DNA of 64,000 nt from Desulfuromonas sp. CSMB_57. GTDB lineage: Bacteria > Desulfobacterota > Desulfuromonadia > Desulfuromonadales > Syntrophotaleaceae. A model generated the notes under the pieces. That model was not told the DNA's origin. It made no database searches and worked only from the letters and a program-made list of their open reading frames with translations. Shown here one piece after another: positions 9,672 to 50,052 of this stretch. The position numbers and the translations under genes are program-made. The stretch spans positions 124,001 to 188,000 of the forward strand of contig NZ_JAFCIY020000023.1 in the NCBI RefSeq assembly GCF_020194955.2, in the 5' to 3' direction. Numbering within the stretch: the first letter of the stretch is position 1; each line of letters begins with the position of its first letter.

Positions 9672-9820
9672 AGCCATCGTTAACATGCCGCTGAGGTTAG
9701 AGGTTTTTTTGTTTACGTTTTGAACCCCATTTAATGCTATGACGTCTTTTCTCTTTCGTGACCATAAACGTTTGATGACGCGCGGTAATTTGCTGCGATA
9801 CATGCAGGAAAGGTAGCGGC

Positions 9821-11521
<1,701 letters not shown>

Positions 11522-11619
11522 GGGGGCGGTAGATATTAATCGGTTTCGCCGACGGCTGGCGTACTTCTTGCTATTAGTTGAACACCGAGCTGTAATTTGC
11601 AGGCTGGGTTTGAATTTTT

Positions 11620-11650
11620 CTTCAGCCTTCAGCCTTCAGCCTTCAGCCTG
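11620..11650. repeat. CTTCAGC heptamer run before pilT
   Basis: Four successive CTTCAGC units sit in the 147-bp gap between pilB and pilT and end 18 bases before the pilT start. They belong to the same family as the arrays near 5.5, 12.8, 16, 23 and 29.8 kb. Confidence 0.9.
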
Positions 11651-11668
11651 CTTTAAATGGAGCCAATC

Positions 11669-12793: not shown

Positions 12794-13096
12794 AGGCTGG
12801 GTAAGTGCAGACTGAAGGCTGAAGGCTGAAGGCTGAAGTGAAGGCGTAAAAAACAGGTTGAAAGCTGAGAAAAACAGGCTGAAGGCTGAAGACTGAAGAC
12901 TGAAGTGAAGGCGTAAAAGGCAGGTTGAAGGCTGAGAAAAACAGGCTGAAGTCTTCAGTCTGCATCATTTTAAGACAACAGAGGGGGTTGGGCTGCGGCG
13001 GCGAGTAAGTCAGCGGAACACTGAGGCAAGAAGGTTTTACTTCAGCCTTCGGACTTCAGTCTTCAGCCTGCTTTACCCAGCCTTCAGCCTGATTTA
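12785..13096. repeat. Heptamer repeat block with duplicated ~68-bp unit, pilT-pilC gap
   Basis: This 317-bp gap contains no gene. It begins with TGAAGGC-type heptamers. A unit of about 68 bp (heptamers, then GTGAAGGCGTAAAA, CAGGTTGAA and GCTGAGAAAAA) is present twice in tandem (about 12803-12945). The block ends with complementary CTTCAGY-type heptamers (13041-13090) just before the pilC ribosome binding site. The opposed orientations could pair in RNA. Confidence 0.88.
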
Positions 13097-13110
13097 AAGA
13101 GGTCCCAAAT

Positions 13111-14328
13111 ATGGCTAAATTCGCATGGGAAGGCAAGGTCCGCGGCGGTCAGGTGCAGAAGGGCGAGATGGAGGCTTCCAACGAGGCCGCCGTCATGGCC
13201 CAGTTGCGCCGTCAGGGCATCATGCCCACCAAGGTCAAGGAGCGCGGCAAGGGCCTGGACGTGGAACTCAAGATCCCCGGGTTCGGCGGCAAGGTCACCA
13301 TCAAGGACAAGGTGGTGTTCACCCGCCAGTTCGCCACCATGATCGATGCCGGCCTGCCCCTGGTGCAATGCCTCGATATTCTCAGCCGTCAGCAGGACAA
13401 CAAGCTTTTTAAAAAGGTGCTGGCCGAGGTCAAGGAGAGCGTCGAATCCGGTGCGACCTTTGCCGAGGCTTTGAAAAAGCATCCCAAGGTCTTTGACGAA
13501 CTGTTCGTCAATCTGGTGGCCGCCGGCGAGGTCGGCGGTATCCTGGATACCATCCTCAACCGCCTGGCCGCCTACCTGGAAAAGGCCCACAAGCTGAGGA
13601 AACGGGTCAAGGGCGCCATGACCTATCCGGCCACGGTGGTCGGCATCGCTCTCATCGTCATCTCCGTCATTCTGATTTTCGTCATACCGGCATTCGAGAA
13701 GATGTTCGCCGACTTCGGCAGTTCCCTGCCGGTGCCGACCCAGATTGTCATCAATTTCAGCAACTTCGTTCGCAGCTATATTCTTGCCATTATCGGCGCC
13801 ATTGTTGTCATCATCTTTCTCTTCAAACGTTTTTACGCCACGCCCCGGGGGCGGGAATTGGTGGATGCCTATGCTCTGCGACTGCCGGTGTTCGGCGTCC
13901 TCATCCGCAAGGTGGCGGTGGCCAAGTTCTCCCGTACTCTCGGCACCATGATTTCCAGCGGTGTGCCGATTCTCGATGGTTTGGATATCGTGGCCAAGAC
14001 CGCCGGCAATCGCACCATCGAGAAGGCCATCTATAACGTCAAGCAGAGCATCAGCGAGGGCAAGACCATTGCCGAACCCCTGGAAAAAACCAGCGTTTTC
14101 CCACCCATGGTCTGCCAGATGATTGCGGTCGGGGAGCAGTCCGGTTCCATCGACGCCATGCTGGCCAAAATCGCCGACTTCTACGACGACGAGGTGGATG
14201 AAGCCGTCGGCAACCTGACCGCCATGATGGAGCCCATGCTGATGCTGTTTTTGGGCACCACCGTCGGCGGTCTGGTTATTGCCATGTACCTGCCCATCTT
14301 CAAGATTGCCGGAGCCGTGGGCGGCTGA
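13111..14328 (+). CDS. pilC: Type IV pilus inner-membrane platform protein PilC
   Basis: PilC (GspF family) is the polytopic membrane protein that couples PilB/PilT to pilin movement. The 405-residue sequence begins AKFAWEGKVRGG, a characteristic PilC opening, and has two GspF domains (about 70-190 and 270-395). Transmembrane segments are at about 170-195, 215-240 and 375-400. The motif FTRQFATMIDAGLPLVQCL near 75 and its repeat FSRTLGTMISSGVPILDGL near 275 mark the two domains. AAAGAGG precedes the ATG by about 8 bases. The pilS start follows after 2 bp. Confidence 0.96.
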   Translation: MAKFAWEGKVRGGQVQKGEMEASNEAAVMAQLRRQGIMPTKVKERGKGLDVELKIPGFGGKVTIKDKVVFTRQFATMIDAGLPLVQCLDILSRQQDNKLFKKVLAEVKESVESGATFAEALKKHPKVFDELFVNLVAAGEVGGILDTILNRLAAYLEKAHKLRKRVKGAMTYPATVVGIALIVISVILIFVIPAFEKMFADFGSSLPVPTQIVINFSNFVRSYILAIIGAIVVIIFLFKRFYATPRGRELVDAYALRLPVFGVLIRKVAVAKFSRTLGTMISSGVPILDGLDIVAKTAGNRTIEKAIYNVKQSISEGKTIAEPLEKTSVFPPMVCQMIAVGEQSGSIDAMLAKIADFYDDEVDEAVGNLTAMMEPMLMLFLGTTVGGLVIAMYLPIFKIAGAVGG

Positions 14329-14330
14329 CC

Positions 14331-15971
14331 GTGATGACCCATGGCCTGCCCGGCCTGAATCAGGACGAGGGCTACCGCCGCCTGCTGCAGGGCTACCTGG
14401 CTCTGCGGGTGCTGGTGCTGACCCTGCTGCTGGGCGGCACTCTGCTGTACCAGGTCAAAGGCCGGCCGCCCGGACATTGGCCGGATCCCCAATATCTGTA
14501 CTCCCTCATCGCCGCTTCCTACCTGCAGGCCCTGCTGTCCCTGCTGGCATTGCGTTGGTTGCGGCGTTTCCGCGGCCTGGTTCAGGTTCAGATTGCCTGG
14601 GATCTGCTGTTCATCACCGCCATTCTCTATCTGACCGGCGGTATCGATAGTCCCTTCCCCTTTCTTTTCCTGCTGGTGATTCTCAGCGCCGCGCTGTTGC
14701 TGACCCGGCGCGATGTACTGATTGTCGCCGCCGCCGCCGCCATCCTCTATGGCAGCCTGGTGGATTTGCAGTATTTCGGATTCCTGCCGGTACTGCCCGG
14801 CATCTCCTTTGTGGAACGGGTGGCGCCATACCGGGCCCTGTATGCCGTCTTTGTCCACGTTTCGGCTTTTTTCGCCATGGCCATGCTGGCCGCCAGCCTG
14901 GTCGGACGCCTGCGTTACAGCGAAGTTGCGCGCCGGCAGGCCGAGGATGACTTTGCCCAATTGGGGCTGCTCAACCGCACCATTCTGGCCAACATGCCCA
15001 GCGGACTGATGATTATCGACCTCGAGGGACGCGTACAATCGGTGAATCCGGCGGCGGAGGAAATGTTGGGCGTGACCCTGGAGCAGTTGAAGGACCATCC
15101 TGCCGGTCGATTTTTCCCGGCTCTGGAAGTGCCTCAGGAGGGGCGTTTTCGACTGGTGGAGCGGGCCGAAGGCACCTTGTGCAACGGCAGCGGGCTGACC
15201 CGGCCCATCGGTTACAACACCTCATTGGTCAATGATCCGGACGGCAAATTGCGCGGCCTGCTGGTGACTTTTCAGGATCTCAGTCGCCTCAAAGAGATGG
15301 AAGAGCGTCTCAAGCGCGCCGATCGTCTGGCGGCCGTCGGTCATCTCGCCGCCGGCATGGCCCACGAGATCCGCAATCCCCTGGCCTCCATCAGCGGCTC
15401 GGTGCAACTCCTTTCCGAAAGCCTGGCCGCCGGCGAGGAGGATCGTCACCTGCTGGCCATCGTGGTGCGCGAAGCCGATCGCCTCAACAAACTGCTGAGC
15501 GATTTTCTGCAGTTCGCCCGTCCCGTGCGCCCGGACCAAGCGCCCTTTGAGCCTGCTGCCATGCTGGATGATTTGCAGGGTCTGGTCGGGGGCGACCCAC
15601 GTTTTACGCACATCACATTGCAGGTGGATGCGCCATGCGGAGAAGTGCTGCTGGGTGACCGTCGGCAATTGCAGCAGGCCCTCTGGAATCTGCTCATCAA
15701 TGCCGCCGAAGCCATGCCGTCGGGGGGCGCCCTGCGCCTGGCCTACGAGCCCCAAACCCAAAGTCTCATCGTCGAGGACAGCGGCCACGGCGTGGCCGAT
15801 GCCCTGCGGGAAAAAATCTTCGATCCCTTTTTCACCACCAAGGATCACGGTACCGGCCTGGGATTGGCCACCGTCTATGCCATCGTGACCGCCCATGGCG
15901 GCACCCTCGATCTGGGCACCAGTCCCCTGGGAGGCGCGAAGTTTATAATCAGACTGAAGGCTGAAGGCTGA
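14331..15971 (+). CDS. pilS: Sensor histidine kinase PilS
   Basis: PilS is the membrane-bound kinase partner of PilR and controls pilin transcription. The 546-residue protein has about six N-terminal transmembrane segments (20-195), a PAS domain (about 215-320), a HisKA dimerisation helix with the phospho-acceptor in AAGMAHEIRNPLASISGS (near 345), and an HATPase domain with the N box (LLINAAEAM), G1 (VEDSGHGV) and GTGLGLATVYAIVTAHGG. A GTG starts 2 bp after pilC and an ATG follows at 14334; either may be used. Its last six codons (RLKAEG) and stop are encoded by the start of the heptamer repeat. pilR is 500 bp away instead of adjoining, because repeats fill the gap. Confidence 0.94.
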   Translation: MMTHGLPGLNQDEGYRRLLQGYLALRVLVLTLLLGGTLLYQVKGRPPGHWPDPQYLYSLIAASYLQALLSLLALRWLRRFRGLVQVQIAWDLLFITAILYLTGGIDSPFPFLFLLVILSAALLLTRRDVLIVAAAAAILYGSLVDLQYFGFLPVLPGISFVERVAPYRALYAVFVHVSAFFAMAMLAASLVGRLRYSEVARRQAEDDFAQLGLLNRTILANMPSGLMIIDLEGRVQSVNPAAEEMLGVTLEQLKDHPAGRFFPALEVPQEGRFRLVERAEGTLCNGSGLTRPIGYNTSLVNDPDGKLRGLLVTFQDLSRLKEMEERLKRADRLAAVGHLAAGMAHEIRNPLASISGSVQLLSESLAAGEEDRHLLAIVVREADRLNKLLSDFLQFARPVRPDQAPFEPAAMLDDLQGLVGGDPRFTHITLQVDAPCGEVLLGDRRQLQQALWNLLINAAEAMPSGGALRLAYEPQTQSLIVEDSGHGVADALREKIFDPFFTTKDHGTGLGLATVYAIVTAHGGTLDLGTSPLGGAKFIIRLKAEG

Positions 15972-15974
15972 AGG

Positions 15975-16448
15975 GTAATCATTAAAGGCATTGGCAAGCC
16001 CATTAAAATATGTAAAATGGGCTTGCTGAGCTACAGGTGACGAGAAGGCCCATGCCTTGGCTGTAAAGTTTTTACCTTCAGTCTTCGGACTTCAGTCTTC
16101 AGTCTGACGTGAAGCAGTCCGAAGGCTGAAGTCCGAGGACTGAAGAAAAGTCATATAAAGCATTGGCAAGACCATTAAAATCTGTACAATGACAATCTGA
16201 ATCTCTGGTGGCGGGAAGGCCCTCGTCTTGGCTGTCGAGTTTTTACCTTCAGTCTTCGGACTTCAGTCTTCAGTCTGAGGTGAAGCAGTCTGAAGACTGA
16301 AGTCCGAAGACTGAAGGGTAATCAATAAAGGCATTGGCAAGCCCATTAAAATCTGTACAATGACAAATTGAACATCTGGTGGCGGAAAGGCCCTTGTCTT
16401 GGCTGTTGAGTTTTTTCCTTCAGCCTTCGGACTTCAGTCTTCAGTCTG
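15975..16448. repeat. Triplicated ~171-bp tandem repeat with 31-bp hairpins, pilS-pilR gap
   Basis: CATTGGCAAG recurs at 15989, 16161 and 16332, giving a 171-172 bp period over three copies. Each copy has a ~100-bp body and then a CTTCAG-type arm. Inverted arms of 31 bp flank an 8-base loop at 16076-16106/16115-16145 and 16247-16277/16286-16316; the latter has one mismatch. The third copy has only the left arm (16418-16448) and stops 23 bases before the pilR start. No coding frame is convincing. Confidence 0.93.
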
Positions 16449-16471
16449 CCTCCAACCCCGGAGGAAAAACC

Positions 16472-17857
16472 TTGCCCGAAAAAGCCCATCGCATCCTGGT
16501 CGTTGACGACGAAGAAAGCATGCGGGAGTTTCTGTCCATCCTGCTGCGGCGGGACGGTTATCAGGTGGAAACCGCCGTGGACGGAGCGCAGGCCGTGGCC
16601 TGCCTGCGGGACGGGCATTTCGATCTGGTGATCAGCGATGTCAAGATGCCCCGGCTGGATGGTTTCAGTCTGCTGGAGCATGTCATGGCCCGTGCTCCGG
16701 GCACCGCCGTCATCATGATCACCGCCTTCTCCAATACCGAACAGGCCGTCGAGGCCATGAAGAAGGGCGCCTACGATTACATCACCAAGCCCTTCAAGAA
16801 CGACGAAATCCGCCTCATTGTCCAGAACGCCCTGGAACGCATGGAATTGCGCAAGGAGAACCGGCAGCTCAAGCGCGAACTGGAGCAGCGATTTTCCTTC
16901 GGCAGCATCATCGGCAAGAGCCGTCCCATGCAGGCGGTGTATGATCTCATCGAAAAGGTGGCCGGCAGCCGGGTCAATATTCTGGTCACCGGCGAGAGCG
17001 GCACGGGCAAGGAACTGGTGGCCAAGGCCATCCATTTCAACAGCGAGCGCCGGGACCAGCCCTTTGTGGCCATCAACTGCGGCGCCATCCCCGAGAATCT
17101 GCTGGAAAGCGAACTGTTCGGCCATGAAAAGGGTTCCTTCACCGGCGCCGTGGCCCAGAAGGCCGGCCTGTTCGAGGTGGCCGACGGCGGTACCCTGTTC
17201 CTCGACGAGATTGCCGAATTGCCGGCCATGATGCAGGTCAAGCTGCTGCGGGTGCTGCAGGAGCGGGAACTGCGCCGGGTCGGCGGCACCCGCACCCTGC
17301 CCGTGGACGTGCGCCTGGTGGCGGCCACCAACAAGGATCTGAACCGCCTGGTTTCTTGCGGCCAGTTCCGCGAGGATCTTTTCTACCGCCTCAACGTCAT
17401 CCAGTTGGCCCTGCCGGCCCTGCGCGAGCGGCGCGAGGACATCCCCCTGCTGGTGGAGCATTTTCTCGGCAAATACAGTCCGACCGTGTCCCTGACCCTT
17501 GCCGACGGCGTCCTGCGCCGCCTCCTCGATTACGGTTGGCCGGGCAATATCCGTGAGTTGGAGAACACCATCGAGCGTTGCGTGGTGCTGTGCGGCGACG
17601 GGGCCATCACCGTCGACAGCCTGCCAGGCCATATCCGGACCGGCGCCGATCCGGTGGAGGCCCCCATGCAGGATCTGCCGGAAGAGGGGCTCGATCTTGA
17701 CAACTACCTCGGCAATATCGAAAAAAGCATTCTCCTCAAAGCCCTCGACCGCACCGGCGGCATCCGCAAGCGCGCCGCCGAGTTGCTGGGCATTTCCTTC
17801 CGCTCCATTCGCTATCGTTTGGCCAAGTACGGGTTGGAGGTGGGGGAAGAGGAGTAG
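16472..17857 (+). CDS. pilR: Sigma-54-dependent response regulator PilR
   Basis: PilR activates sigma-54 RNA polymerase at pilin promoters when phosphorylated by PilS. The 461-residue protein has a receiver domain (acidic pocket VDDEE near 11-15, phospho-Asp in ISDVKMPR, then KPF), an AAA+ domain with Walker A GESGTGKE, the sigma-54 contact loop GSFTGA (commonly GAFTGA) and GGTLFLDEI, and a C-terminal Fis-type helix-turn-helix ([19 protein letters not shown]). The start is set at a TTG with GGAGG 7 bases upstream; the open frame extends to 16379, but that extension is repeat sequence. Three strong -24/-12 sites within 7 kb downstream (pilA, pilD, pilM) are its likely targets. Confidence 0.95.
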
Positions 17858-18007
17858 GGCCTTGGTGCCAAAAAACGTCACTCATATTGACGCGCATTGT
17901 TGCTCCCCGGCCGGACTATCTGTTAAACTGCTTCGCGCTTGCCGGGCCGTTTGGCTAATGGGCCGAAGATTCAAGCTTTTTTATTTATTTTTGGATTTTG
18001 GAAAATT

Positions 18008-18023
18008 TGGCACGGCCGCTGCA
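18008..18023 (+). promoter_or_regulatory. Sigma-54 (-24/-12) promoter of pilA
   Basis: TGGCACGGCCGCTGCA matches the -24 element exactly and the -12 element with one change. The invariant GG (18009-18010) and GC (18021-18022) are spaced by exactly one helical turn as required. Transcription would start near 18034, leaving an 84-base leader before pilA. The ~150 bp upstream, back to pilR, would hold PilR sites. Confidence 0.9.
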
Positions 18024-18117
18024 AGTTAATTTGGCCAAGCGGAACGATTTTCCCGTTCATTCATCCGGTGCCGAATCTACGGTTCCGAACACTCAACCAT
18101 TTGAAAGGAGTTTCATC

Positions 18118-18717
18118 ATGTTCAAGGCGCTTCGTAAGAGCGAGAAGGGTTTCACCCTCATCGAGCTGTTGATCGTCGTCGCGATCATCGGCATCCTGGC
18201 CGCCATCGCCATCCCGCAGTTCGCGGCTTATCGGCAGCGGGCCTACAACTCTGCGGCCCTGTCGGACCTCAACAATCTGCAAAAGTCCCAGGCTGCCTTT
18301 TTCAGTGATTGGCAGACTTTTGGTCAGAGTGCGCTTGGTGCTAATGAGGCTGGTGCTGCTGCTGTTTCAGGAGCAAATACCGGAGTCCTGCTTACTGGGC
18401 CCGGCGCAGGCAATGCGTTGCCGTTTATTGCAGGGGGCCTCAACGGCGCCACGAATGCCATGCGCATTGGTTTGAGCAACAATGTCAACTTGGTGGCTCA
18501 TACGCTTGCAACCGGTACTGGTTTCAATGCAACTAGTAAGCATCTTCAAGGGATTAATTTCTACGGCATTGATAGCGACATTACCGCTCAATATCAGGTT
18601 CGTTCCACTGCTGGTCCTGGGGCAATGGCACTCGCTGTGTGCCCGAACGTGACAGCAGCAGATGACTTTACCGGTGTCACCCCGGCTGGTGGCGCTGCTG
18701 CATGGTCCATGATGTAA
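18118..18717 (+). CDS. pilA: Major type IV prepilin PilA (long form)
   Basis: The 199-residue prepilin is expected to be cleaved after Gly11 to give a mature pilin beginning [20 protein letters not shown], which is inserted by PilB/PilC. The first ~60 mature residues follow the short Geobacter pilin closely, with aromatics at mature positions 1, 24, 27, 32, 50, 51, 54 and 57. About 130 further residues (Gly/Ala-rich, one Cys near the end) form a globular domain that Geobacter sulfurreducens lacks in PilA-N. The start was set at the ATG with AAAGGAG 9 bases upstream; the frame opens 40 codons earlier in leader sequence. Preceded by a sigma-54 promoter and followed by a strong terminator. The C-terminal part is less GC-rich than its neighbours. 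Confidence 0.95.
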
Positions 18718-18731
18718 TCAGTATGGATACT

Positions 18732-40520: not shown

Positions 40521-41013
40521 ATTCTCCGGCAGGCCGAAGGGCAGTCGGCCGCTTATCGAACCGGCTTTCGGCAGGCAATTGAAAATCTTCCTGAAGCTGG
40601 TGTGCGTAATAGCCAGCTAACAGAGTGTTGTCGGTTCCAGTCAAATTTTTGGCTGGCTGTCATTGTGCTGAATCTCCAGGAAGATGGCCAAAAATGAAAA
40701 ACCCTATCCCTGGGAAAAGCCGTGCCGGGCCCCCAAACTCCTGGGCTGAGCAGTTACGTTTTTTTCTTTTCCAAGGTATCACAGAACATGAAGACGGCTT
40801 TGCAGAAAGGCTTTTCTTTAATCGACTTGGTGTATGCAAAGAATGGGCCTTAATGAATGTCAAGTTTAGCGCATTGTATATATCGTAAACAATTAGAAAT
40901 CTTGACATGAAAAAGAATGAGATTTATTTTGTGATCCATGCGGGACGTTATGTGTCTTTCGTTATAAGGCCTGCTGCCGGGCCTTTGTGTCCACCTTTAA
41001 AAAGGAGGGCGGG
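40521..41013. other. 493-bp intergenic region with a candidate sigma-70 promoter
   Basis: No convincing gene is seen between the divergent HDOD-GGDEF and zinc-ribbon genes; the open frames here lack ribosome binding sites and family motifs. TTGACA at 40902-40907 and TATTTT at 40925-40930 are 17 bases apart and could drive the plus-strand genes. A small hairpin AAGGCC/GGCCTT (40966-40985) follows. The part from 40760 to 40930 is AT-rich. Confidence 0.6.
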
Positions 41014-41226
41014 ATGCCCGGAAATGGCTTCTCCGAGTCCAAACACCTTGTCGAACTGCATTGTCCCTGCTGCCAGGCCCTGGTCCGGGTTCTGCCAAGG
41101 GAGGTGCGACTGCAGGCGACGTTTTGCTGCCCGCATTGTTGTCAAGAAACCCGGTTCGAAAGCTCCCACCTACTGGAATCCCTGCATCAAATCGAGGCCA
41201 TGCTGGCTCAGTGCCAAGCACGATAG
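41014..41226 (+). CDS. Small zinc-ribbon-like protein (70 residues)
   Basis: The start with AGGAGG 6 bases upstream gives a 70-residue protein; an in-frame GTG nine codons earlier precedes that site and is unlikely. It has two Cys clusters, CPCC (residues 17-20) and CCPHCC (about 38-43), which could bind one zinc as a ribbon, followed by a helix (SSHLLESLHQIEAMLAQC). This resembles MJ0042/FleS-type zinc finger starts of larger proteins, but here it stands alone. Function unknown; a DNA-, RNA- or protein-binding role is possible. Confidence 0.72.
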   Translation: MPGNGFSESKHLVELHCPCCQALVRVLPREVRLQATFCCPHCCQETRFESSHLLESLHQIEAMLAQCQAR

Positions 41227-41413: not shown

Positions 41414-41911
41414 ATGACACCTAAATCCCTTTTGGAACAGAGTCTCGGCTTCGTCATCTGGCTGGTCATCACCTTTTCCGCTGCGGCTGTCGGCAGCGTC
41501 GCGACCATGAATGCCCGGGATTTCTACTCCCAACTGGTTTTGCCGGCCTGGGCGCCGCCGGGATGGGTTTTCGGCCCAGTCTGGACCCTGCTTTATGCCA
41601 TGATGGCGGTGGCGGCCTGGCTGGTCTGGCGGGTTGGGGGATTTCGTGCGGCGCGCGGCGCGCTGTGCCTGTTTCTGATTCAACTTGCGTTTAATGCACT
41701 CTGGAGTTGGCTGTTCTTTGCCTGGAATCGCGGTGCCCTGGCATTTCTGGAAATATGGCTGTTGTGGCTGCTGATCCTGGCAACGCTGCTGGCCTTCTGG
41801 CGAGTCAGAGCCGCCGCCGCTTGGCTGCTGGTTCCCTATCTGCTGTGGGTGAGTTTTGCCGCGGTTCTGAGCCATGCCATCTGGCAACTCAACCCCTCGA
41901 TCCTGGGCTGA
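41414..41911 (+). CDS. tspO: TspO/MBR family tryptophan-rich sensory protein
   Basis: The 165-residue protein has five hydrophobic helices and the family pattern: ATMNARDFYSQLVLPAWAPPGWVFGPVW after helix 1, LYAMMAVAAWLVWRVGG, FLIQLAFNALWSWLFFAWN, and a last helix with VPYLLWVSFAAVLSHAIWQLN. TspO proteins bind tetrapyrroles and in bacteria modulate responses to oxygen and porphyrin. The start is the ATG after AAGGAG (8 bases). It is upstream of two cobalamin-type radical SAM genes, which could be a functional hint. Confidence 0.9.
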   Translation: MTPKSLLEQSLGFVIWLVITFSAAAVGSVATMNARDFYSQLVLPAWAPPGWVFGPVWTLLYAMMAVAAWLVWRVGGFRAARGALCLFLIQLAFNALWSWLFFAWNRGALAFLEIWLLWLLILATLLAFWRVRAAAAWLLVPYLLWVSFAAVLSHAIWQLNPSILG

Positions 41912-42003
41912 TATTCCCATGAACCGAGGAGTGCGAGTGTTTGCTCCAAGGCTGCTGGATAGTTGCACCATTTTTTTCCTGCTGGAAGAGGAGCAAGCAC
42001 CCC

Positions 42004-42270
42004 ATGGAAAGTGAAAAAATACAGATTCGTACCGAAGCCGGGCAAATTCTTGAAGTGGAGGTGGCCGGCAAAAAGTCCGATGCCATCTGGGTGGTACTGG
42101 GCGAAGGGGCGCACAGTATCAAGTGCAAACTGACTCCGACCCGTACCGGTCGGGCCTATGCGGGCACTGTCATGGGCCGTGAAATCGTCTACGAACGCAG
42201 CGTGCAACAGGTTCGAGAGGATCTGGCCCGACACCGTCCTGAGCAAAACTTGCGCAAACCTTCTCGCTGA
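42004..42270 (+). CDS. Small hypothetical protein (88 residues)
   Basis: The 88-residue protein is mostly beta by pattern (KIQIRTEAGQILEVEVAG, AIWVVLGEGAHSIKCKLTPT, AYAGTVMGREIVYERS) and ends in a basic helix (VQQVREDLARHRPEQNLRK). It looks like a small beta-barrel domain with a charged tail. GAGGAG lies 11 bases before the ATG; the frame opens 21 codons earlier with a TTG. No signal peptide. I do not recognise the family. Confidence 0.65.
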   Translation: MESEKIQIRTEAGQILEVEVAGKKSDAIWVVLGEGAHSIKCKLTPTRTGRAYAGTVMGREIVYERSVQQVREDLARHRPEQNLRKPSR

Positions 42271-42421
42271 GGCGGATTTTTCGTGAGGCGAACACCAATG
42301 CGCGTCGCCGGAGTTTGAAACCTACAGGGGAAACCTTGGCCAGGTCTGCGGCGGCGCGCCTTGCCGGCAACCAAAATCTCTCAGAATTTCTTGACACGAC
42401 TAACCGTACGGGACACAAGTC

Positions 42422-43138
42422 TTGAGATTGGCCATCAATCCCTATGGAACCATCGGTTTCGGCCTGGCCTCGACTTATGCGCTGCTTGGGTCCTGGTCCC
42501 TGCCGGAGTTCTGCTGGAGCACCTGGTTGGCGGGTCTGGTCTATGCCTGGGGTTGCATTGCCACGGCCTCGGTGCAAGGCGTTTTCGCCGCCTGCTCCCA
42601 TCGGAAAGCCATCGAGGAGCGTTTGCCCTTGCTACGGCATTTCTCTCCTGCGGTCTTTCTGTTTGGCGCCATTCTGCTCAGTCTGTCCCTGGGGTGGCTG
42701 ACCTTCCGCCTTTACAGTTTTTTGTTCGGTTTCTATGGTCTGTTTCTCTCCGTATTCGCCGAACTGGAACCCTATTCCCTGTTCGGACGTAACGGCTTCA
42801 TCAACTCGGACTTTTTTACCCCGGTGTTTTTTCTGCTTGAGCGTTTCTGGCCCATGGTGGTCGGCGTGCTGATTGCGAACTGGCAGGACTTTCTCGGCGG
42901 CAACCCTTGGCAGCGAGTCCGATTGCCCTTGCAGAGAGAGATCGTGCGTCTGCACGTCATGATTCTCGCATTGCCGTTTTTGGCCCTGCTGGCATGGGCT
43001 CTGGTCGGCGCGGCCTACCAGCCCATCACCATCCTGCTGCTCATGGCTCTGCTCTATCTGTTGCCGAAACCGTCGCAGGCCAAGCGTGACCAAGACGGAG
43101 AGATAAAACGGGAGAAGGCCGTACCCTGGGTGGAGTGA
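42422..43138 (+). CDS. Polytopic membrane protein of unknown function
   Basis: The 238-residue product is very hydrophobic, with about five or six helices (approximately 8-28, 30-50, 75-115, 130-150, 178-212) and a charged C-terminal tail. Aromatic stretches (FRLYSFLFGFYGLFLSVFAEL) are notable. The only early start is a TTG with a weak ACGGGA site, so the exact N terminus is uncertain. It ends 4 bases before the first radical SAM gene, suggesting that the three genes form one operon. Family not recognised. Confidence 0.72.
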   Translation: MRLAINPYGTIGFGLASTYALLGSWSLPEFCWSTWLAGLVYAWGCIATASVQGVFAACSHRKAIEERLPLLRHFSPAVFLFGAILLSLSLGWLTFRLYSFLFGFYGLFLSVFAELEPYSLFGRNGFINSDFFTPVFFLLERFWPMVVGVLIANWQDFLGGNPWQRVRLPLQREIVRLHVMILALPFLALLAWALVGAAYQPITILLLMALLYLLPKPSQAKRDQDGEIKREKAVPWVE

Positions 43139-43142
43139 GACG

Positions 43143-44471
43143 GTGAAGGTACTTTTTCTGCAACCCAACCTGGCCGATGTACGCTCCGCGGATGCCATGG
43201 AGCCGCTGGTGTTTGCCATTCTGAAAAGCCTCACTCCGGCGGATGTCGAAGTGGCTCTGCGTGATGAACGGGTGGAGCCGATTCCGGATGAGGAATCGGC
43301 CGATCTGGTGGCCATGACCATCCAGACTTTTACCGCCCGCCGGGCCTATCAACTGGCGGCCCAATTTCGGGGTCGCGGCATCCCGGTGGTTGCGGGCGGC
43401 CATCATCCAACCCTGCTGCCGGAAGAAGTGCTCCGGCATGTCGATGCGGTGGTCATGGGGGATGCCGAGGGGATCTGGCCGCAACTGCTGGCCGATGCCC
43501 GCAGCGGTCGCCTGCGCCGTCTCTACCGCGGGCCGCAGCCGCCGCTGACTTCCGGCCTGATTCCGGACCGTACCATTTTTGCCGGCAAGAAATATCTTCC
43601 CATCCATCCCGTGCAGTTCGGTCGCGGCTGCCGCTATGCCTGTGACTTCTGTTCCGTGCATGCCTTTTACGGCACGTCGCTGCGTTATCGGCCGGTTGCC
43701 GACCTGGTTGCCGAGCTGGCCGCATTGTCGGGGCGGATGGTTTTTCTGGTGGACGACAACCTGTTCGCCGATCCGGCCCGTGCCCGGGAACTGCTGCAGG
43801 CCGTTGCTCCACTCGGATTGCGCTGGGTCTGTCAAGCCAGCATCGATGTCGCGGCCGATGCATCCATGCTGGATCTTTTGTCCCGAAGCGGCTGCTGCTG
43901 CGTCCTCATCGGTTTTGAATCCCTGCGGCGCGGCAACCTGGTGCAGATGGGCAAAGCCGCCAACCTCGCGCTGCCCGATTACGATTCCGCCGTGGCCCGA
44001 ATCCGGCGCCGGGGCATGATGGTCTATGGCACCTTTGTGTTCGGCTATGATGCCGACGATGAAACGGTATTCGCCGAAGCGGCGGATTTTGCCATTCGCA
44101 ACAAGCTGTGTCTGGCCAACTTCAATCCTCTGGTCCCCATCCCCGGAACCCCACTGTTCCGGCGCCTGGCCGCGGAAGGGCGTTTGCTGTTTCCCGCCTG
44201 GTGGCTTGCGCCCGACTATCGCTACGGCATGGCGACCTTTCGTCCCCGGAGCATGACCGAAGCGGAACTTACCGCCGGCTGTTTTTGGGCTCGCAAACGT
44301 TTCAATGCCTTGGGCACCATTGTCCGCCGGGCCCTGGACCGGCAGGCCAACGGGCATAATCTGCAGCAACTGGCTCTGTTTCTAGCTGCCAATCTGACAT
44401 CGCGGCGGGAAATTTTCCGCAAACAAGGGCTGGCCCTCGGGCCCGATGGCGGTTTATGCGAATCACCCTGA
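43143..44471 (+). CDS. B12-binding-type radical SAM protein, copy 1
   Basis: The 442-residue protein has an N-terminal Rossmann-like cobalamin-binding-type domain (KVLFLQPNL, VAMTIQTFTARRAYQLA, VVAGGHHPTLLPEEVL, DAVVMGDAEGIWPQLL; about 1-125). A radical SAM barrel follows with the 4Fe-4S motif CRYACDFC (about residue 162), then VFLVDDNLFADP and VLIGFESLRRGNL. This is the architecture of BchE/HpnR/HpnJ-like methylases and oxidoreductases. GTG start 4 bases after the membrane protein. It overlaps copy 2 by 16 bases. The substrate is unknown. Confidence 0.87.
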   Translation: MKVLFLQPNLADVRSADAMEPLVFAILKSLTPADVEVALRDERVEPIPDEESADLVAMTIQTFTARRAYQLAAQFRGRGIPVVAGGHHPTLLPEEVLRHVDAVVMGDAEGIWPQLLADARSGRLRRLYRGPQPPLTSGLIPDRTIFAGKKYLPIHPVQFGRGCRYACDFCSVHAFYGTSLRYRPVADLVAELAALSGRMVFLVDDNLFADPARARELLQAVAPLGLRWVCQASIDVAADASMLDLLSRSGCCCVLIGFESLRRGNLVQMGKAANLALPDYDSAVARIRRRGMMVYGTFVFGYDADDETVFAEAADFAIRNKLCLANFNPLVPIPGTPLFRRLAAEGRLLFPAWWLAPDYRYGMATFRPRSMTEAELTAGCFWARKRFNALGTIVRRALDRQANGHNLQQLALFLAANLTSRREIFRKQGLALGPDGGLCESP

Positions 44472-45784
44472 TCAAACCCAATATCGGCCGGATGGAACAT
44501 AGCCTGTACGTCGATGAAGGGCGCATGGAGCCCCTGCAACTCGGTGTGCTGGCCGGCATGACGCCTGCCGACGTGGAGGTGGAACTGGTCGACGATCGGA
44601 TCGAGGCGATCCCCTATGAACGGCCAACGGATCTGGCAGCCATCACCGTCGAAACCTTTACCGCCCGGCGCGCCTATGAAATCGCCGCCGGTTACCGGGC
44701 CCAGGGAGTTCCGGTGGTGATGGGCGGCATGCATGCCACCCTCCTGCCGCAGGAAGTTGGCCGCCATGCCGATGCCGTCTGCATCGGCGATGCCGAACCG
44801 GTCTGGAAGCACATTCTGGAGGATGCCCGGCGGGGAGTCTTGCGCCCGCTTTACGAGGGCACATGCGACCTTCCCCAGCCGGCAAGCCTGACCCGCCGGG
44901 ATCTGTTCCGGGGCAAGGGATATCTCCCCATCACCCTCCTGCAGTTCAGTCGCGGCTGTCGTTACACCTGCCGGTTCTGTGCCACCAGCCGTTTTTTCGG
45001 TGGGCGTCATCTGGTGCGGCGAATCGACGAGGTATTGAGGGAAATCGACGCGCAGGAGCGCAAACTGCTGTTCTTTGTGGATGACAACATTGTCGCCAGC
45101 CCGGAGAGTGCCAAGGAACTGTTCAGGGAGTTGATTCCTCTCAAGATGCGCTGGGTTTCTCAGGGCAGTCTCGATATGGTCAACGATGGGGAATTGATGC
45201 GGCTTATGGCGGATAGCGGTTGTCTGGGGCACGTCATGGGTTTTGAATCCCTGCGGCCGGAAAACCTGCGCGTCATGGGCAAAACCCCCAATTCCGGCGC
45301 CGGTTCCCGGTATCAACACGAACTGGCCGTGCTGCGTGAGTACGGTCTGCAGATCTGGGCCGCCTTTACTCTGGGCCATGACGGTGATACCCTCGAATCC
45401 ATTCGGGGCATCCTGGATTTTGCCCTGGAAAGCCGCTTCGCCTATGCCGCCTTCAATATCCTCATGCCCTATCCCAACACGCCCTGGTACCACGAACTGG
45501 CCGCTGCCGGGCGCCTGCTGTACGACGGCTGCTGGTGGTTGCATCCCGACTACCGTTTCAACCATGCCGCCTTCCTACCGCGCGGCATGTCCGCCGAGGC
45601 CTTGACCGAAGCCGCGTTCCAGGTTCGGGCGCGGTTCAACAGTCCGGGGGCCTTGCTGCGGCGTTTCATCGGTTTGCAGGGAAATCTGCTGTCCCTCTAT
45701 CGGGTGGCCCAGTTCCTGATTTACAGCCGGCTTTTTCGGCGCGAGCTGTTCAAAAAACAGGGCATGCGTTTCGGCCTGGGATAG
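44456..45784 (+). CDS. B12-binding-type radical SAM protein, copy 2
   Basis: The 442-residue paralogue of the preceding gene is colinear with it: TPADVEVELVDDRIEAIPYE, TVETFTARRAYEIA, VVMGGMHATLLPQEV, the cluster motif CRYTCRFC, LFFVDDNIVASPESAKELF and GFESLRPENL. Equal length and shared spacing show a tandem duplication followed by divergence, which suggests successive or heterodimeric reactions on one substrate. Start is an ATG inside the end of copy 1. The convergent minus-strand aminotransferase ends 54 bp after it, with no obvious terminator. Confidence 0.87.
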   Translation: MRITLIKPNIGRMEHSLYVDEGRMEPLQLGVLAGMTPADVEVELVDDRIEAIPYERPTDLAAITVETFTARRAYEIAAGYRAQGVPVVMGGMHATLLPQEVGRHADAVCIGDAEPVWKHILEDARRGVLRPLYEGTCDLPQPASLTRRDLFRGKGYLPITLLQFSRGCRYTCRFCATSRFFGGRHLVRRIDEVLREIDAQERKLLFFVDDNIVASPESAKELFRELIPLKMRWVSQGSLDMVNDGELMRLMADSGCLGHVMGFESLRPENLRVMGKTPNSGAGSRYQHELAVLREYGLQIWAAFTLGHDGDTLESIRGILDFALESRFAYAAFNILMPYPNTPWYHELAAAGRLLYDGCWWLHPDYRFNHAAFLPRGMSAEALTEAAFQVRARFNSPGALLRRFIGLQGNLLSLYRVAQFLIYSRLFRRELFKKQGMRFGLG

Positions 45785-45838: not shown

Positions 45839-47200
45839 TCAAATTCCTGTCAGCAGGCAGGGATCCTGCCGGATTTCCAGCTTGCGGAAATCACCGCGCC
45901 GCAGCACGTTGCGGATGATGTCGATGCCCTGCCCAATCTCCTCCGCACTGACGATGAGATGAGGCCGAAAGCGGATGCCGCATTCGCCGCAGCCGCTAAG
46001 CAGCAGTCGAGCCTGGAAAAAGGCTTTGAGCAACTGGTCGCGGGTATGGGAGTCGGGGGCGTCAAAGGCGCACATCAGTCCGCGGCCGCGGGGATTGAGC
46101 AGGGTTTCGGGAAATTCCGCGGCCAGTTTCCGCAATTCGGCCAACAGCAGAGCCCCTTGCCGGCGGGCATTTTCGACCAGTTGTTCCTCCTCGATAATTT
46201 CCAGAATGTAGCGGCAACGGGCCATGTCCACCAGGTTGCCGCCGAAAGTCGAGTTGAGACGGCTGCGCTCCTGAAAGACGTGGCAGCCGACCTGCTCCAC
46301 GCGGCGCGAGGCCAGCATGCCGCAGACCTGGGTTTTTTTGCCGAAGGCCAAAAGGTCGGGTTGAATGCCGAAGTGCTCATAGGCCCAGAACCGTCCGGTC
46401 AGGCCGATTCCGGTCTGCACCTCGTCCAGAACCAGCATGATCTCATGGTCATCGCAGATGGCGCGCAGGGCCTGAAAAAATTCCGGCCGGAAATGATTGT
46501 CTCCGCCCTCGCCCTGGATGGGTTCGATGATCAGGGCGGCAATATCGGCGCCATGCTCTGCGATAGCGCTGCGGATCTCTGCCAGGGACTGATTTTCCAA
46601 AATCTCGACGGCTGCCAGACCTGGCTCGTCGAGAGGGAAGGAAATCTTGGGAATGCTGATACGCGGCCAGGAAAACTTCGGGAAAAACTTGGTTTTCCGG
46701 GCATCGAAGGTGTTGGTCAGGGACAGGGTGTAACCGCTGCGGCCGTGAAAGGCCTGGCGGAAGTGAATGACCTGCGAGCCGTTTTCGCCGCGCAGACCGG
46801 CGGCCAGGTTCTTACGCACTTTCCAGTCGAAGGCGGTTTTCAACGCATTTTCCACCGCCAGGGTGCCGCCGTCGATAAAGAAGGCGTGGGGCAGATGGTC
46901 GGGCATGGCGAGGCGGGAGAAAGTGGCCACGAATTCCGCCATGGCGGTGGTATAGACATCGGAGTTGGACGGCTTGTTGACCGCCAGGCGGCCGAGATCT
47001 TCACAGGCGGCCAGCAGACGCGGATGGTTGTAGCCGACAGCCATGGAGGCGTACATGGAAAAAAAATCGAGGTAACGATCGCCGTTGCGCTGGTCGACGA
47101 ACCAGCTGCCCCGGGAGCGCTCCAGATCGAGGATGATATCGAAACCTTCCGTCAACAGATGGCGGGACAACTGCGCTTTGACATCCTGGGGCTGAATCAC
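45839..47200 (-). CDS. lat: L-lysine 6-aminotransferase
   Basis: This PLP enzyme transfers the epsilon-amino group of lysine to 2-oxoglutarate, giving allysine (cyclising to piperideine-6-carboxylate). The 453-residue class III aminotransferase follows the Lat subtype closely: NKPSNSDVYTTAMAEFV, GGTLAVENALKTAFDWK, AFHGRSGYTLSLTNT, EPIQGEGGDNHFRPEF, DEVQTGIGLTGRFW, the PLP-lysine region AFGKKTQVCG and NPRGRGLMCAF. The start is set at a GTG with AAGGAGG 5 bases upstream, trimming 14 residues from the longest frame. Neighbours aguA/aguB suggest a diamine or amino-acid degradation context. Confidence 0.9.
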   Translation of the reverse strand: MIQPQDVKAQLSRHLLTEGFDIILDLERSRGSWFVDQRNGDRYLDFFSMYASMAVGYNHPRLLAACEDLGRLAVNKPSNSDVYTTAMAEFVATFSRLAMPDHLPHAFFIDGGTLAVENALKTAFDWKVRKNLAAGLRGENGSQVIHFRQAFHGRSGYTLSLTNTFDARKTKFFPKFSWPRISIPKISFPLDEPGLAAVEILENQSLAEIRSAIAEHGADIAALIIEPIQGEGGDNHFRPEFFQALRAICDDHEIMLVLDEVQTGIGLTGRFWAYEHFGIQPDLLAFGKKTQVCGMLASRRVEQVGCHVFQERSRLNSTFGGNLVDMARCRYILEIIEEEQLVENARRQGALLLAELRKLAAEFPETLLNPRGRGLMCAFDAPDSHTRDQLLKAFFQARLLLSGCGECGIRFRPHLIVSAEEIGQGIDIIRNVLRRGDFRKLEIRQDPCLLTGI

Positions 47201-47228
47201 CGGCACCTCCTTGGTGGAAACGGCAGAC

Positions 47229-47242
47229 TTGCATCGATGCAA
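47229..47242. promoter_or_regulatory. 14-bp perfect palindrome upstream of lat
   Basis: TTGCATCGATGCAA lies 28 bases before the lat start. A plausible minus-strand promoter (TTGCCG, 16 bases, TAAACT, about 47256-47283) lies just upstream, so the palindrome would sit near the transcription start, as a repressor operator does. Inference only. Confidence 0.4.
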
Positions 47243-47358
47243 TGTACCATTTCAGTTTAACAAGGTCGCCGGCTTCGGCAATGGTACCAAAAGGCACCCT
47301 GCCTGGAAAACGTGGTGCCGGGTGCAATCCGCGGGTGAAACGGTGTGGTCCGGTGGGC

Positions 47359-48009
47359 TTATACAACTGACGCCGGCAGGCCGCTGCCGGTGGAGATGCT
47401 GCGGATGATCTGCGGCAGTTCCTGATGATGCTGGATGGTGAGGGAATCAGGGAAATGGCCTTTATAGCCGACGAAGGCCATGCCGGCGCGGCGCGCCGCT
47501 TCCCGATCCACATCCATGTCGCCGACGAACAGCAGGTCGGTCACCGGCAGCTTGAGACGTTCGGAGGCCAGCAGCAACAGATCGGGGTGGGGCTTGCCGT
47601 TGACCACGTCGCGGCTGGTAAGGATGGCGGAAAAGTAACGATCCAAGCCGAAATAGGCACTCAAATCGTGCATGCTGTTGCCCCGGTTGGTGGCGACCGC
47701 CAGGGGCATGGTGGAAGACAGTTCGGCCAGCAGGTCCATGATGCCGGGCTCGGGAACGATGAGGGGGATGAACTGGCGGTAGTCGATGGCGGCGGCGATT
47801 TTTACGGCCCTCTCCGCCTGCTCCGGGCCCAGCAGGGCGGCAAACACCTCCGGGGTCGTGACGGTATGGCAGAGGTAGACCTTTTCGTGGTCGTCGTCGG
47901 CGATGGCCGGCAGTCCCAATTCCCGCAACACCGCGCTGTAAAAGGCGACATTGGCTTTCAGGCTGTCGAGCAGCACCCCGTCACAATCGAAAATAAGGCC
48001 GCGCACCAT
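47359..48009 (-). CDS. HAD-superfamily hydrolase, phosphoglycolate phosphatase-like
   Basis: The 216-residue HAD enzyme has motif I FDCDGVLLDS (nucleophile Asp and acid/base Asp), motif II VATNRGNS, motif III Lys in NGKPHPDLLL and motif IV FVGDMDVDREAA, with a helical cap between I and II (gph/PGMB-like type). The likely substrate is a small phosphorylated metabolite. The start is the ATG immediately before VRGLIFDCDG, with GGAGG 11 bases upstream; the longer frame adds 36 unsupported residues. Same strand as lat and the agu genes. Confidence 0.82.
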   Translation of the reverse strand: MVRGLIFDCDGVLLDSLKANVAFYSAVLRELGLPAIADDDHEKVYLCHTVTTPEVFAALLGPEQAERAVKIAAAIDYRQFIPLIVPEPGIMDLLAELSSTMPLAVATNRGNSMHDLSAYFGLDRYFSAILTSRDVVNGKPHPDLLLLASERLKLPVTDLLFVGDMDVDREAARRAGMAFVGYKGHFPDSLTIQHHQELPQIIRSISTGSGLPASVV

Positions 48010-48139
48010 GCTTAGGGTTGCCTCCAAAGGGGTGGCCCGCTGCCGGAAACCACCGACGGGCCGATGGTTCTTCTTCCTGTGCCGCCCATTGTAGCTGGTG
48101 AGGGAGGGGAAAGGCAACAGCGGTCGTCAGTGAAACCGG

Positions 48140-49030
48140 TCAGTCGTCCAGATAGCGTTTTACCAGGCCGTGATAGGCATCGATGCGGCGATCACGCAGA
48201 AAGGGCCAGATGCGACGCACCTGTTCGCTGCGCCGGCGGTCGACGGTGACCACCAATACCTGTTCCTGGTCCTGGCTCGCCCGGGCCAGGATTTCCCCCT
48301 GGCTGCCGGCAACGAAGCTGTTGCCCCAGAAGATGGCGCCTTGCTCGGCGTTGGCGGGATTGGCTTCGAAGCCGACCCGGTTGACGGCCACCACCGGCAG
48401 GCCGTTAGCCACGGCATGGGAGCGCTGGATGGTGAGCCAGGCATCGAGCTGCCGTTGCTGCTCTTCCAAAGAATCTGCGGGATCCCAGCCGATGGCCGTC
48501 GGGTAGATGAGCAGGTCCGCTCCCGCCAGCGCCATGAGGCGGGCGGCTTCCGGATACCATTGATCCCAGCACACCAGCACCCCGAGGCGCCCGACCGAGG
48601 TATCGATGGGGGTGAAGCCGAGATCGCCGGGGGTGAAATAGAATTTTTCGTAATAGCCCGGATCGTCCGGAATGTGCATTTTGCGATAGCGTCCGGCGAT
48701 GCGGCCGTCGCGCTCCAGAACTACCGCCGTATTGTGATAGAGTCCCGGGGCGCGACGTTCGAACAGGGAGGCGACGATGACCACATTCAACTCCCGGGCC
48801 AGGTCGCCGAGTTGTTCCGTGGCGGGACCGGGAATCGTTTCCGCCTGGTCGAAACAGGTCGTATCTTCGGTCTGGCAGAAGTAGAGGCCGGCATGCAACT
48901 CCTGCAGCACCACCAGTTGGGCACCGGCGGCCGCCGCTTCGCGGATGCCGGCCATGCTGCGGGCCAGGTTGTCCTGGCGATGGCCGCTGCAGCTTTGTTG
49001 TACCAGGCCGATGCGCAGTTCGGTGGTCAT
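48140..49030 (-). CDS. aguB: N-carbamoylputrescine amidase
   Basis: AguB hydrolyses N-carbamoylputrescine to putrescine, CO2 and ammonia. The 296-residue nitrilase-superfamily protein shows the E-K-C triad: Glu in VVLQELHAG (near 44), Lys in YRKMHIPDDPGYYEKFYF (near 115) and Cys in GVLVCWDQWYPEAARL (near 150). The ELHAGLYFCQTED and HIPDDPGYYEKFYFTPG segments are typical of AguB. ATG with AAGGAG 8 bases upstream; its start overlaps the aguA stop. Makes a two-step agmatine-to-putrescine route with aguA. Confidence 0.94.
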   Translation of the reverse strand: MTTELRIGLVQQSCSGHRQDNLARSMAGIREAAAAGAQLVVLQELHAGLYFCQTEDTTCFDQAETIPGPATEQLGDLARELNVVIVASLFERRAPGLYHNTAVVLERDGRIAGRYRKMHIPDDPGYYEKFYFTPGDLGFTPIDTSVGRLGVLVCWDQWYPEAARLMALAGADLLIYPTAIGWDPADSLEEQQRQLDAWLTIQRSHAVANGLPVVAVNRVGFEANPANAEQGAIFWGNSFVAGSQGEILARASQDQEQVLVVTVDRRRSEQVRRIWPFLRDRRIDAYHGLVKRYLDD

Positions 49031-50052
49031 GACAGGACTCCTTTCGGCAACTGCATGGTGACGCAATGCAGGGAACCGTGCTGGCGAATCAGGGGCCGGC
49101 AATCGATGCCGATGATGCTGCGTCCCGGAAAGGCGTTGCTGATGGCCGCCAGGGCCTGTGCGTCCCGGGGATCGTCATAGGTGGGAACCAGCACAGCCCG
49201 GTTGATGACCAGAAAATTGGCATAGGTCGCCGGCAGCCGTTGGCCGGTTTCATCGAAACAGGCTTTGGGCCAGGGCAGGGGGATGAGCCGGTAAGGCTGA
49301 TCTTCGGGGGTGCGCAGGGCGCCCAGTTCCTCGCCCATGCGGGCCAGGGCCTCGAAATGCTCGTCCGCCGGATCGTCGCAGGTGACATGAAGAATGGTGT
49401 TGTCCGGTGCCAGGCGCGCCAGGGTATCGATATGCGAATCCGTATCGTCCCCGGCCAGGTAGCCGTTTTCCAGCCAGAGGAAATGTCGGCCGCCCAACAG
49501 GCTGCGCAGTTCCTGTTCCAACTGCTCCCGGGTCAGATGGGGATTGCGGTTGGCGTTGAGCAGGCACGTGGTGGTGGTCAGCAGGGTGCCGGCGCCGTCG
49601 GATTCGATGCTGCCGCCTTCCAGGATCAGGCCGGGAACGGTGATGGGCAGGGCGCCGAAAACTCCGCTGCGGACCAGGCCCTGGGTGACCTGATTGTCGT
49701 GATGGGCGGGGAACTTCAAGCCCCAGCCATTGAAGCCGAAATCGAGCAGGTGCGGGCGGCCGTCCTCTAAAACGGTAATCGGGCCGAAGTCGCGGGTCCA
49801 GGTATCGTTGGTGGGCAATTCCACCACCATGACCCGCTCCGGATCAATGCCGACGGTCTGTAGCCGAGGCAGCAATGTGTGCGCATCGCCGGCCACGATC
49901 AAGACCTTTTCAAAGCGGCTGATTTCCTTGGCAAGGCGTAAAAATACCGGTTCCACCACCTCCAACCAGGGGTGCCAGTCGCTTTCTTCGTGGGGCCAGG
50001 CCAGCAGCACTCCGTCCTGTTCTTCCCATTCCGCCGGCAGTCGCAGGGGCAT
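49027..50052 (-). CDS. aguA: Agmatine deiminase
   Basis: AguA converts agmatine to N-carbamoylputrescine and ammonia. The 341-residue guanidine-modifying enzyme begins LPAEWEEQDGVLLAWPHEESDW and has NDTWTRDFGPI, GGSIESDGAGTLLTT, the catalytic His region AGDDTDSHIDTLARL and the C-terminal Cys nucleophile in HGSLHCVTMQ. GGAGA precedes the ATG. Overlaps aguB by 4 bases. No arginine decarboxylase (speA) is in the window. Confidence 0.95.
   Translation of the reverse strand: MPLRLPAEWEEQDGVLLAWPHEESDWHPWLEVVEPVFLRLAKEISRFEKVLIVAGDAHTLLPRLQTVGIDPERVMVVELPTNDTWTRDFGPITVLEDGRPHLLDFGFNGWGLKFPAHHDNQVTQGLVRSGVFGALPITVPGLILEGGSIESDGAGTLLTTTTCLLNANRNPHLTREQLEQELRSLLGGRHFLWLENGYLAGDDTDSHIDTLARLAPDNTILHVTCDDPADEHFEALARMGEELGALRTPEDQPYRLIPLPWPKACFDETGQRLPATYANFLVINRAVLVPTYDDPRDAQALAAISNAFPGRSIIGIDCRPLIRQHGSLHCVTMQLPKGVLS

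Follow-up and report, generated by a model that had tools for sequence, protein, structure and literature searches.

The question raised by this locus is what two adjacent and equally long radical S-adenosylmethionine (SAM) proteins, rSAM1 and rSAM2, do together, and with which other genes. They are encoded in a 64,000-nucleotide stretch of Desulfuromonas sp. CSMB_57 (assembly GCF_020194955.2, contig NZ_JAFCIY020000023.1, positions 124,001 to 188,000), named here the window, whose numbering is used throughout:

43143–44471, + strand: rSAM1, B12-type radical SAM protein, 442 amino acids (aa), type C, GTG start
44456–45784, + strand: rSAM2, B12-type radical SAM protein, 442 aa, type D, ATG start

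An earlier note, made from the sequence alone, described an equal-length, colinear pair with a 16-base overlap, placed 4 bases after a membrane protein gene. The coordinates agree: the rSAM1 and rSAM2 reading frames share 16 bases, and 4 bases separate the end of the membrane protein gene (43138) from rSAM1. The two proteins are 44% identical, and in both the Pfam Radical_SAM family (PF04055) is found above its cut-off (1e-8 for rSAM1, 2e-11 for rSAM2). The CxxxCxxC motif lies at residues 163/167/170 of rSAM1 and 168/172/175 of rSAM2, with its cysteines invariant across 36 C-type and 40 D-type sequences, respectively. Probably the pair supplies the C and D members of a conserved pathway of biosynthesis. 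Its other core members would be genes of another contig (C50) of the same genome, and rSAM1 and rSAM2 would add two radical steps acting on a substrate that is lipid-like and linked to an amino acid. Support is good for the architecture of this pathway (its clades, gene pairs, gene company, and split between loci); the chemistry is inferred.

The four-clade family and the second locus

A genome-wide search with rSAM1 finds the closest relative, 49% identical, on contig C50, with a second relative (41%) beside it. The genes of this locus, L028, are:

contig C50, about 10841–18720 (L028 4842–12721): radical SAM types A and B, GNAT-like protein, C1 (a 240-aa family), GH3, PLD-type protein

In the order of transcription, L028 encodes radical SAM proteins of 462 and 464 aa, a GNAT-like protein of 370 aa, a 235-aa member of a GNAT-fold family, GH3, and the PLD-type protein; the 464-aa radical SAM protein overlaps the 462-aa one by 10 bases, and the two were typed as A and B by tree. 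The GH3-type amide synthetase matches PF03321 at 2e-53, and the best NCBIfam match of the PLD-type protein is cardiolipin synthase (109 bits, cut-off 290). The 370-aa protein has no Pfam hit of its own; it matches 52 of the 53 members of a length-filtered GNAT-like set at 1e-10, itself included, and weak GNAT matches are found for members from genome G054 (E 0.003) and locus L075 (E 0.0096). The AlphaFold model of the C1 member of locus L059, with a predicted local distance difference test (pLDDT) score of 95.4, has a GNAT fold, and therefore the gene set holds two GNAT-type proteins. A, B, both GNAT-like genes, and GH3 are all present in the genome of the window (L028 6406–12721).

A scan of genome contigs yielded 75 further loci, fetched with 39–58% identity to rSAM1, whose record titles name many phyla, some of them doubtfully. 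Genes were called around these loci and the encoded proteins clustered; the family was analyzed with FastTree (220 rows) and with a quick IQ-TREE tree (92 rows, outgroup rows limited to matched stretches). In the latter, four clades, A, B, C, and D, are found with Shimodaira–Hasegawa-like approximate likelihood ratio test (SH-aLRT) values of 99, 99, 93, and 100; rSAM1 falls inside clade C (93) and rSAM2 inside clade D (100). The support of clade C in FastTree is weak (41), and no branching order among the clades is claimed because the outgroup rows are long-branched. The earlier note read the pair as a duplication. This did not hold as a local event, since C and D are separate, ancient clades, each found across many phyla, and a recent tandem duplication is ruled out by this placement.

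Before typing, seven calls of odd length (L055, L065, L073, L082, L094, L101, and L106) were left out, along with a gene of L060 that is masked in part and is C by best match. The L055 call (8073–11654, a Propionibacterium bin) is an open frame of 1193 aa that contains a family member and is either a fusion or a calling error; that of L106 is 815 aa long. Six family rows stand outside the four clades, two each from L094 and L096 and one each from L084 and L087. Some phylum labels of metagenome bins are doubtful, because the assembly size of L061, titled Nealsonbacteria (9.1 Mb), does not fit its name; L046 is titled Uhrbacteria (1.0 Mb), and both carry the genes. Among viral contigs, the scan gave 32 pattern matches, none of which was confirmed.

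With the window and L028 set aside, 73 of the 75 loci could be typed: ABCD 30, D 16, AB 11, CD 6, ACD 6, B 2, BCD 1, and C 1 (L060 is counted as AB, yet it also holds the partly masked C-like gene). With both included, D immediately follows C in 40 of the 44 loci that have both genes, and B immediately follows A in 36 of 42. The 30 ABCD loci contain a GNAT-like gene without exception, C1 in 26 cases, and GH3 in 25; a GNAT gene is also found in 10 of the 16 D-only loci. The distances of the gene families are correlated across loci (r 0.46–0.84), and none of 500 permutations gave a value as high, which is as expected of a co-inherited set. What was computed directly is the existence of four separate clades, near-fixed A–B and C–D pairs, the recurrent company of two GNAT-like proteins and GH3, and sets split between loci.

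The window is one such split case. Four of the six other genomes with CD-only loci (L035, L041, L052, L099) have more family members on another contig; best matches identify them as A and B in three of the four genomes, and in L035 the members are untyped and adjoin GH3. GH3 itself is found in all seven genomes of CD-only loci, that of the window included, versus 1 of 14 control genomes, and in 1 of the 5 D-only genomes searched. Of the genomes with A+B or B alone, 11 of 12 have no C or D at E ≤ 1e-55, the L060 genome having both. Since A+B sets occur without C and D, A+B are taken as the core together with the GNAT-like proteins and GH3. In the simplest reading, A, B, the GNAT-like proteins, and GH3 form this core, C+D are an added module, and D-like enzymes are used separately by a minority. 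One genome from the same order (L011, G054 contig C110, 7–609) also has, at the end of a contig, a fragment of type C (76% to a known C type) with a GNAT-like gene next to it.

Another explanation would be that the C50 genes are independent, the window pair and its orphan membrane protein acting by themselves on a local substrate. The 4-base distance between the membrane protein gene and rSAM1, the lack of a relative of this protein in the other loci, and the 16 loci in which D is the only type are in line with it. However, C and D accompany A in 36 of the 73 typed loci (ABCD 30, ACD 6), and GH3 is present in every CD-only genome. C was found without D in two places: at L054, the sole typed locus of this kind, whose genome has GH3 and shows no D at E ≤ 1e-55, and at the L060 locus, where D lies on another contig. 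The independent action of the window pair is accordingly quite improbable.

Several observations weigh against the proposal of one pathway divided between the window and C50. The two loci are on different contigs of a 94-contig draft and may lie at any distance from each other. In the CD-only genomes of L046 and L088, neither A nor B appears at E ≤ 1e-55. Five ABCD loci lack GH3 and four lack C1 in the stretch examined, and the six ACD loci show neither B nor a GNAT-like gene; most of these cases are drafts or cut contigs. The correlation of distances can also be yielded by shared descent alone. Because the assemblies are mostly drafts, absences at the genome level are soft.

Known families and the predicted cobalamin site

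Neither rSAM1 nor rSAM2 reaches an NCBIfam cut-off. The best score of rSAM1 is 73 bits against 750 (ApyD), and that of rSAM2 is 76 against 600 (PhpK). The scores below all lie under the respective cut-offs:

HpnJ: rSAM1 57.2, rSAM2 66.4 bits; cut-off 577.6
HpnR: rSAM1 55.1, rSAM2 32.1 bits; cut-off 650
BchE: rSAM1 52.7, rSAM2 47.9 bits; cut-off 481
PhpK: rSAM1 64.7, rSAM2 76 bits; cut-off 600
TIGR04072, ladderane-type: rSAM1 59.5, rSAM2 30.6 bits; cut-off 360
AprD4 (NCBIfam): rSAM2 43.7 bits, rSAM1 not listed at E ≤ 0.01; cut-off 500
MgmA (TIGR04014): rSAM1 59.5, rSAM2 23.9 bits; cut-off 360

HpnJ, HpnR, BchE, and PhpK have the broad B12-type radical SAM architecture in common with rSAM1 and rSAM2, but all scores are far under the cut-offs. 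The proposal of the earlier note that the pair belongs to an uncharacterised radical SAM system is strengthened by this result, as no tested named family claims either enzyme; neither the NCBIfam comparison nor the trees placed each enzyme in a functionally known family (GenK was not among the families compared, no model of it being among the hits). Four orthologous radical enzymes found together across many phyla point to a defined, multi-step radical pathway that is named by no curated family tested.

The AlphaFold2 model of rSAM1 (pLDDT 93.2) consists of a Rossmann domain and a radical SAM core. The cobalamin enzymes TokK, TsrM, OxsB, and CysS likewise have an N-terminal Rossmann domain, a helical C-terminus, and a CxxxCxxC-bearing radical SAM core, with 14–20% identity to rSAM1 in structural alignments. 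The alignments of the model to TsrM, CysS, and OxsB begin at residue 1 or 2, as do those to AprD4 and MiaB. Following the closest match, AprD4, the ranking is MgmA (Z 26.6), CysS (26.4), TsrM (25.4), MiaB (24.4), OxsB (24.1), and TokK (17.9). MgmA (9ccb), the methyl-coenzyme M reductase glutamine C-methyltransferase, resembles rSAM1 with 24% identity; methanogenesis genes were not noticed in the neighbourhoods. Lipid coupling of the tetraether synthase (Tes) type was considered as well; Foldseek against Tes (7tol) aligned 196 columns, a part of the chain, with a template modelling (TM) score of 0.33.

An indirect pointer to cobalamin lies in the N domain. In TokK, Trp76, which belongs to the loop following strand 3, is placed beneath the cobalt (PMC13331322). 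A weak alignment of the profiles pairs this position with residue 63 of rSAM1, which in the model is found just past the third strand (55–59) and is an aromatic phenylalanine; the equivalent aromatic of rSAM2 is F68. An aromatic residue occupies this site in 45 of 45 C sequences, 60 of 60 D sequences, and 44 of 45 B sequences, and glycine does so in 47 of 49 A sequences. From this pattern, B, C, and D are predicted to bind cobalamin, with the aromatic residue under cobalt as in TokK, and A perhaps does not.

The prediction for C and D can be questioned. It is conceivable that the enzymes act in the same pathway without cobalamin, as AprD4-like proteins that have kept the B12-type Rossmann domain and perform other radical chemistry, e.g., dehydration, deoxygenation, epimerisation, or C–C coupling. 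The rSAM1 model is closest to AprD4 (6fd2; Z 30.9, 377 residues, 2.7 Å, 20% identity), which is also its best sequence match in the PDB and that of the C and D profiles among solved structures, yet the NCBIfam cut-off for this family is missed. AprD4 is a radical SAM dehydratase (PMC5461906). MiaB ranks above the cobalamin enzymes OxsB and TokK. Neither AprD4 nor MiaB is known to use cobalamin. The TokK N-domain profile alignment is weak (11.3 bits). Of the cobalamin-binding-type N domains that the earlier note gave to both proteins, that of rSAM1 stands above the cut-off of Pfam PF02310 (43.1 bits, cut-off 32.1), while that of rSAM2 falls below it (28.9 bits). These points speak against cobalamin-dependent steps; on the other hand, all C and D sequences compared have the aromatic residue in place of Trp76, A does not, and rSAM1 scores above the B12-binding cut-off. 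Cobalamin-free action of the pair is therefore considered unlikely.

The possible substrate and product

Indications about the product come from GH3 and from the genes near the loci. The sole NCBIfam match of the two pathway GH3 proteins tested is the model of OlsH, a GH3-type lyso-ornithine lipid synthetase. The match is weak, 59.5 bits for the protein of the window's genome and 41.1 bits for that of L059, with a cut-off of 620, and in this respect it is unfavourable to the proposal. OlsH is a bacterial GH3 enzyme that makes N-acyl ornithine, its gene partners are OlsI and OlsG, and the word "radical" is absent from the text covered (PMC12493201).

Tailoring genes at other loci, with one representative of each cluster tested, encode FA_desaturase, FA_hydroxylase, P450, AurF-like, Rieske, and MMPL proteins, with a PAP2-like one below the cut-off. 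The FA_desaturase cluster is found in 12 of the 30 ABCD loci, and the PAP2-like, MMPL, and FA_hydroxylase clusters recur together with several of membrane proteins. D-type genes outside the full set have as neighbours a Trp/Tyr permease (L075), an alpha-oxoamine-synthase-like protein and an SDR (L084), or an Orn/DAP-decarboxylase-like protein (L094), accompanied by GNAT or FemAB-like proteins. An amino-acid-linked, lipid-like product would fit these neighbourhoods and the GH3 evidence.

It might also be considered that the product is not lipid-like but a small, hydrophilic metabolite derived from an amino acid, GH3 and the GNAT-like proteins serving to conjugate or protect amino acids. Neither fold is restricted to lipids. 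A permease family stands beside D in 8 of the 16 D-only loci (Trp_Tyr_perm in the single member tested, from L075). The likely anaerobe loci L063, L076, and L090 have no desaturase-type neighbour cluster in the stretch examined. Nevertheless, the frequency of FA_desaturase, the recurrence of the other lipid-type and membrane clusters, and the fact that the only NCBIfam match of GH3 is a lipid enzyme make a hydrophilic product somewhat unlikely.

Two other groups of loci were observed. In Chloroflexi, Anaerolineales, and Trueperaceae (L075, L079, L081, L083, L089, L104, L105, L107), a D-type gene stands with a GNAT-like gene and the permease of one cluster, GH3 not being at the locus; these are perhaps a minimal relative of the pathway. 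In L084, L087, L094, and L096, further radical SAM genes accompany a D-like enzyme, as do FemAB-like, GNAT, and MMPL-type proteins; L084 and L087 add an alpha-oxoamine-synthase-like protein and an SDR, L094 and L096 an Orn/DAP-decarboxylase-type protein (one of each pair tested).

If the lipid-like substrate is accepted, a course of the pathway can be outlined. C and D would act in sequence on one intermediate, and their steps would be cobalamin-assisted, most likely C-methylations of unactivated carbons. It is proposed that GH3 activates the molecule as an acyl-adenylate and joins it to an amine or amino acid, and that the GNAT-like enzymes may act on it by acyl transfer. The membrane protein adjacent to rSAM1 may anchor or export the product. 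More broadly, and only tentatively, one could suggest an undescribed, widespread class of bacterial amino-lipids made without a polyketide or peptide synthase. In its synthesis, up to four B12-type radical SAM enzymes would one after another rework an acyl or amino-acid precursor and GH3 with GNAT-fold acyltransferases would join the amine; individual organisms would add modules for desaturation, hydroxylation, or export, and the optional C+D module would set the branching or cyclisation pattern.

The enzyme superfamilies involved are all known, and it is their combination and the four clades that appear undescribed. No description of such a gene set was found in the literature, subscription journals being mostly outside the coverage, and papers that pair GH3 with radical SAM gave unrelated uses only, GH3 meaning a glycosidase where it is spelled out. 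The Nit1C cluster, which combines radical SAM with GNAT and nitrilase, is mentioned in one of these papers. If the proposal is true, modified amino-lipids or related metabolites would be made by a new route, a new biomarker lipid might be gained, and C–H functionalising enzymes could be obtained from named strains such as Zhengella mangrovi, Malikia spinosa, and Sedimentibacter saalensis.

Neighbouring genes in the window

Upstream of rSAM1, three genes are called on the same strand:

41414–41911, + strand: TspO/MBR protein (PF03073, 142.7 bits), judged an unrelated neighbour
42004–42270, + strand: 88-aa protein of a family present in the same order, judged outside the system
42422–43138, + strand: polytopic membrane protein, 236–238 aa, no family, TTG start at 42422 or 42428

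The earlier note placed TspO and two small proteins here. TspO is genuine and the 88-aa protein is fairly clear, but the second small protein, an open reading frame of 79 aa (40987–41226), was not called coding and is without a Pfam or NCBIfam family. The codon-usage caller gave positive scores to TspO, the 88-aa protein, the membrane protein, rSAM1, and rSAM2; as TspO, rSAM1, and rSAM2 were seed genes, its independent support is limited to the membrane protein (score 50) and the 88-aa protein (18, with a floor of 15). Gaps of 92 bases between TspO and the 88-aa gene, and of about 150 bases between the latter and the membrane protein gene, restrict the tight spacing to the membrane protein, rSAM1, and rSAM2, which are possibly in one transcription unit. 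The promoter scan was at about chance level and the terminator scan below it.

The partners of the C–D pair, namely A, B, two GNAT-like proteins, GH3, and PLD, are found outside the window, on C50. Among 978 proteins called in and around 77 loci, there is no relative of TspO or of the 88-aa protein. TspO is found in 3 of 40 relatives and the 88-aa family in 29 of 194 classmates (own genome counted in both), the latter with varying flanking genes. The radical SAM family is rare in the class: at E ≤ 1e-95, rSAM2 is matched in 3 of 277 classmates, the own genome among them, and the matches of the other two are A+B pairs and not D. On distribution and neighbourhood, TspO and the 88-aa protein were dropped as pathway members.

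With TspO apparently unlinked to the system, the idea of a tetrapyrrole substrate, which the earlier note had raised alongside a membrane or lipid one, loses its main support. A tetrapyrrole or membrane substrate with TspO as partner could still be argued from the position of TspO upstream on the same strand and from the BchE scores of the pair (52.7 and 47.9 bits); against the BchE cut-off of 481, the missing TspO relatives around the loci, and the separate distribution of TspO, it is hardly credible.

The membrane protein was also compared with C3, the usual membrane neighbour of C–D, and this assignment was rejected: no similarity was found (hhalign probability 0.1%), and other blastp matches were no better than E 0.99. 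Relatives of it were found neither in 57 other relatives of the strain nor in 193 other classmates, two overlapping sets, nor in 43 genomes carrying the rSAM family, in a search without positive control; there is also no match in the PDB and no Pfam or NCBIfam family. Its link to the system is thus one of position.

Downstream, on the minus strand at 45839–50052, class-III-aminotransferase-, HAD-, nitrilase-, and agmatine-deiminase-like genes converge on rSAM2. By eye, these genes look like polyamine or lysine metabolism.

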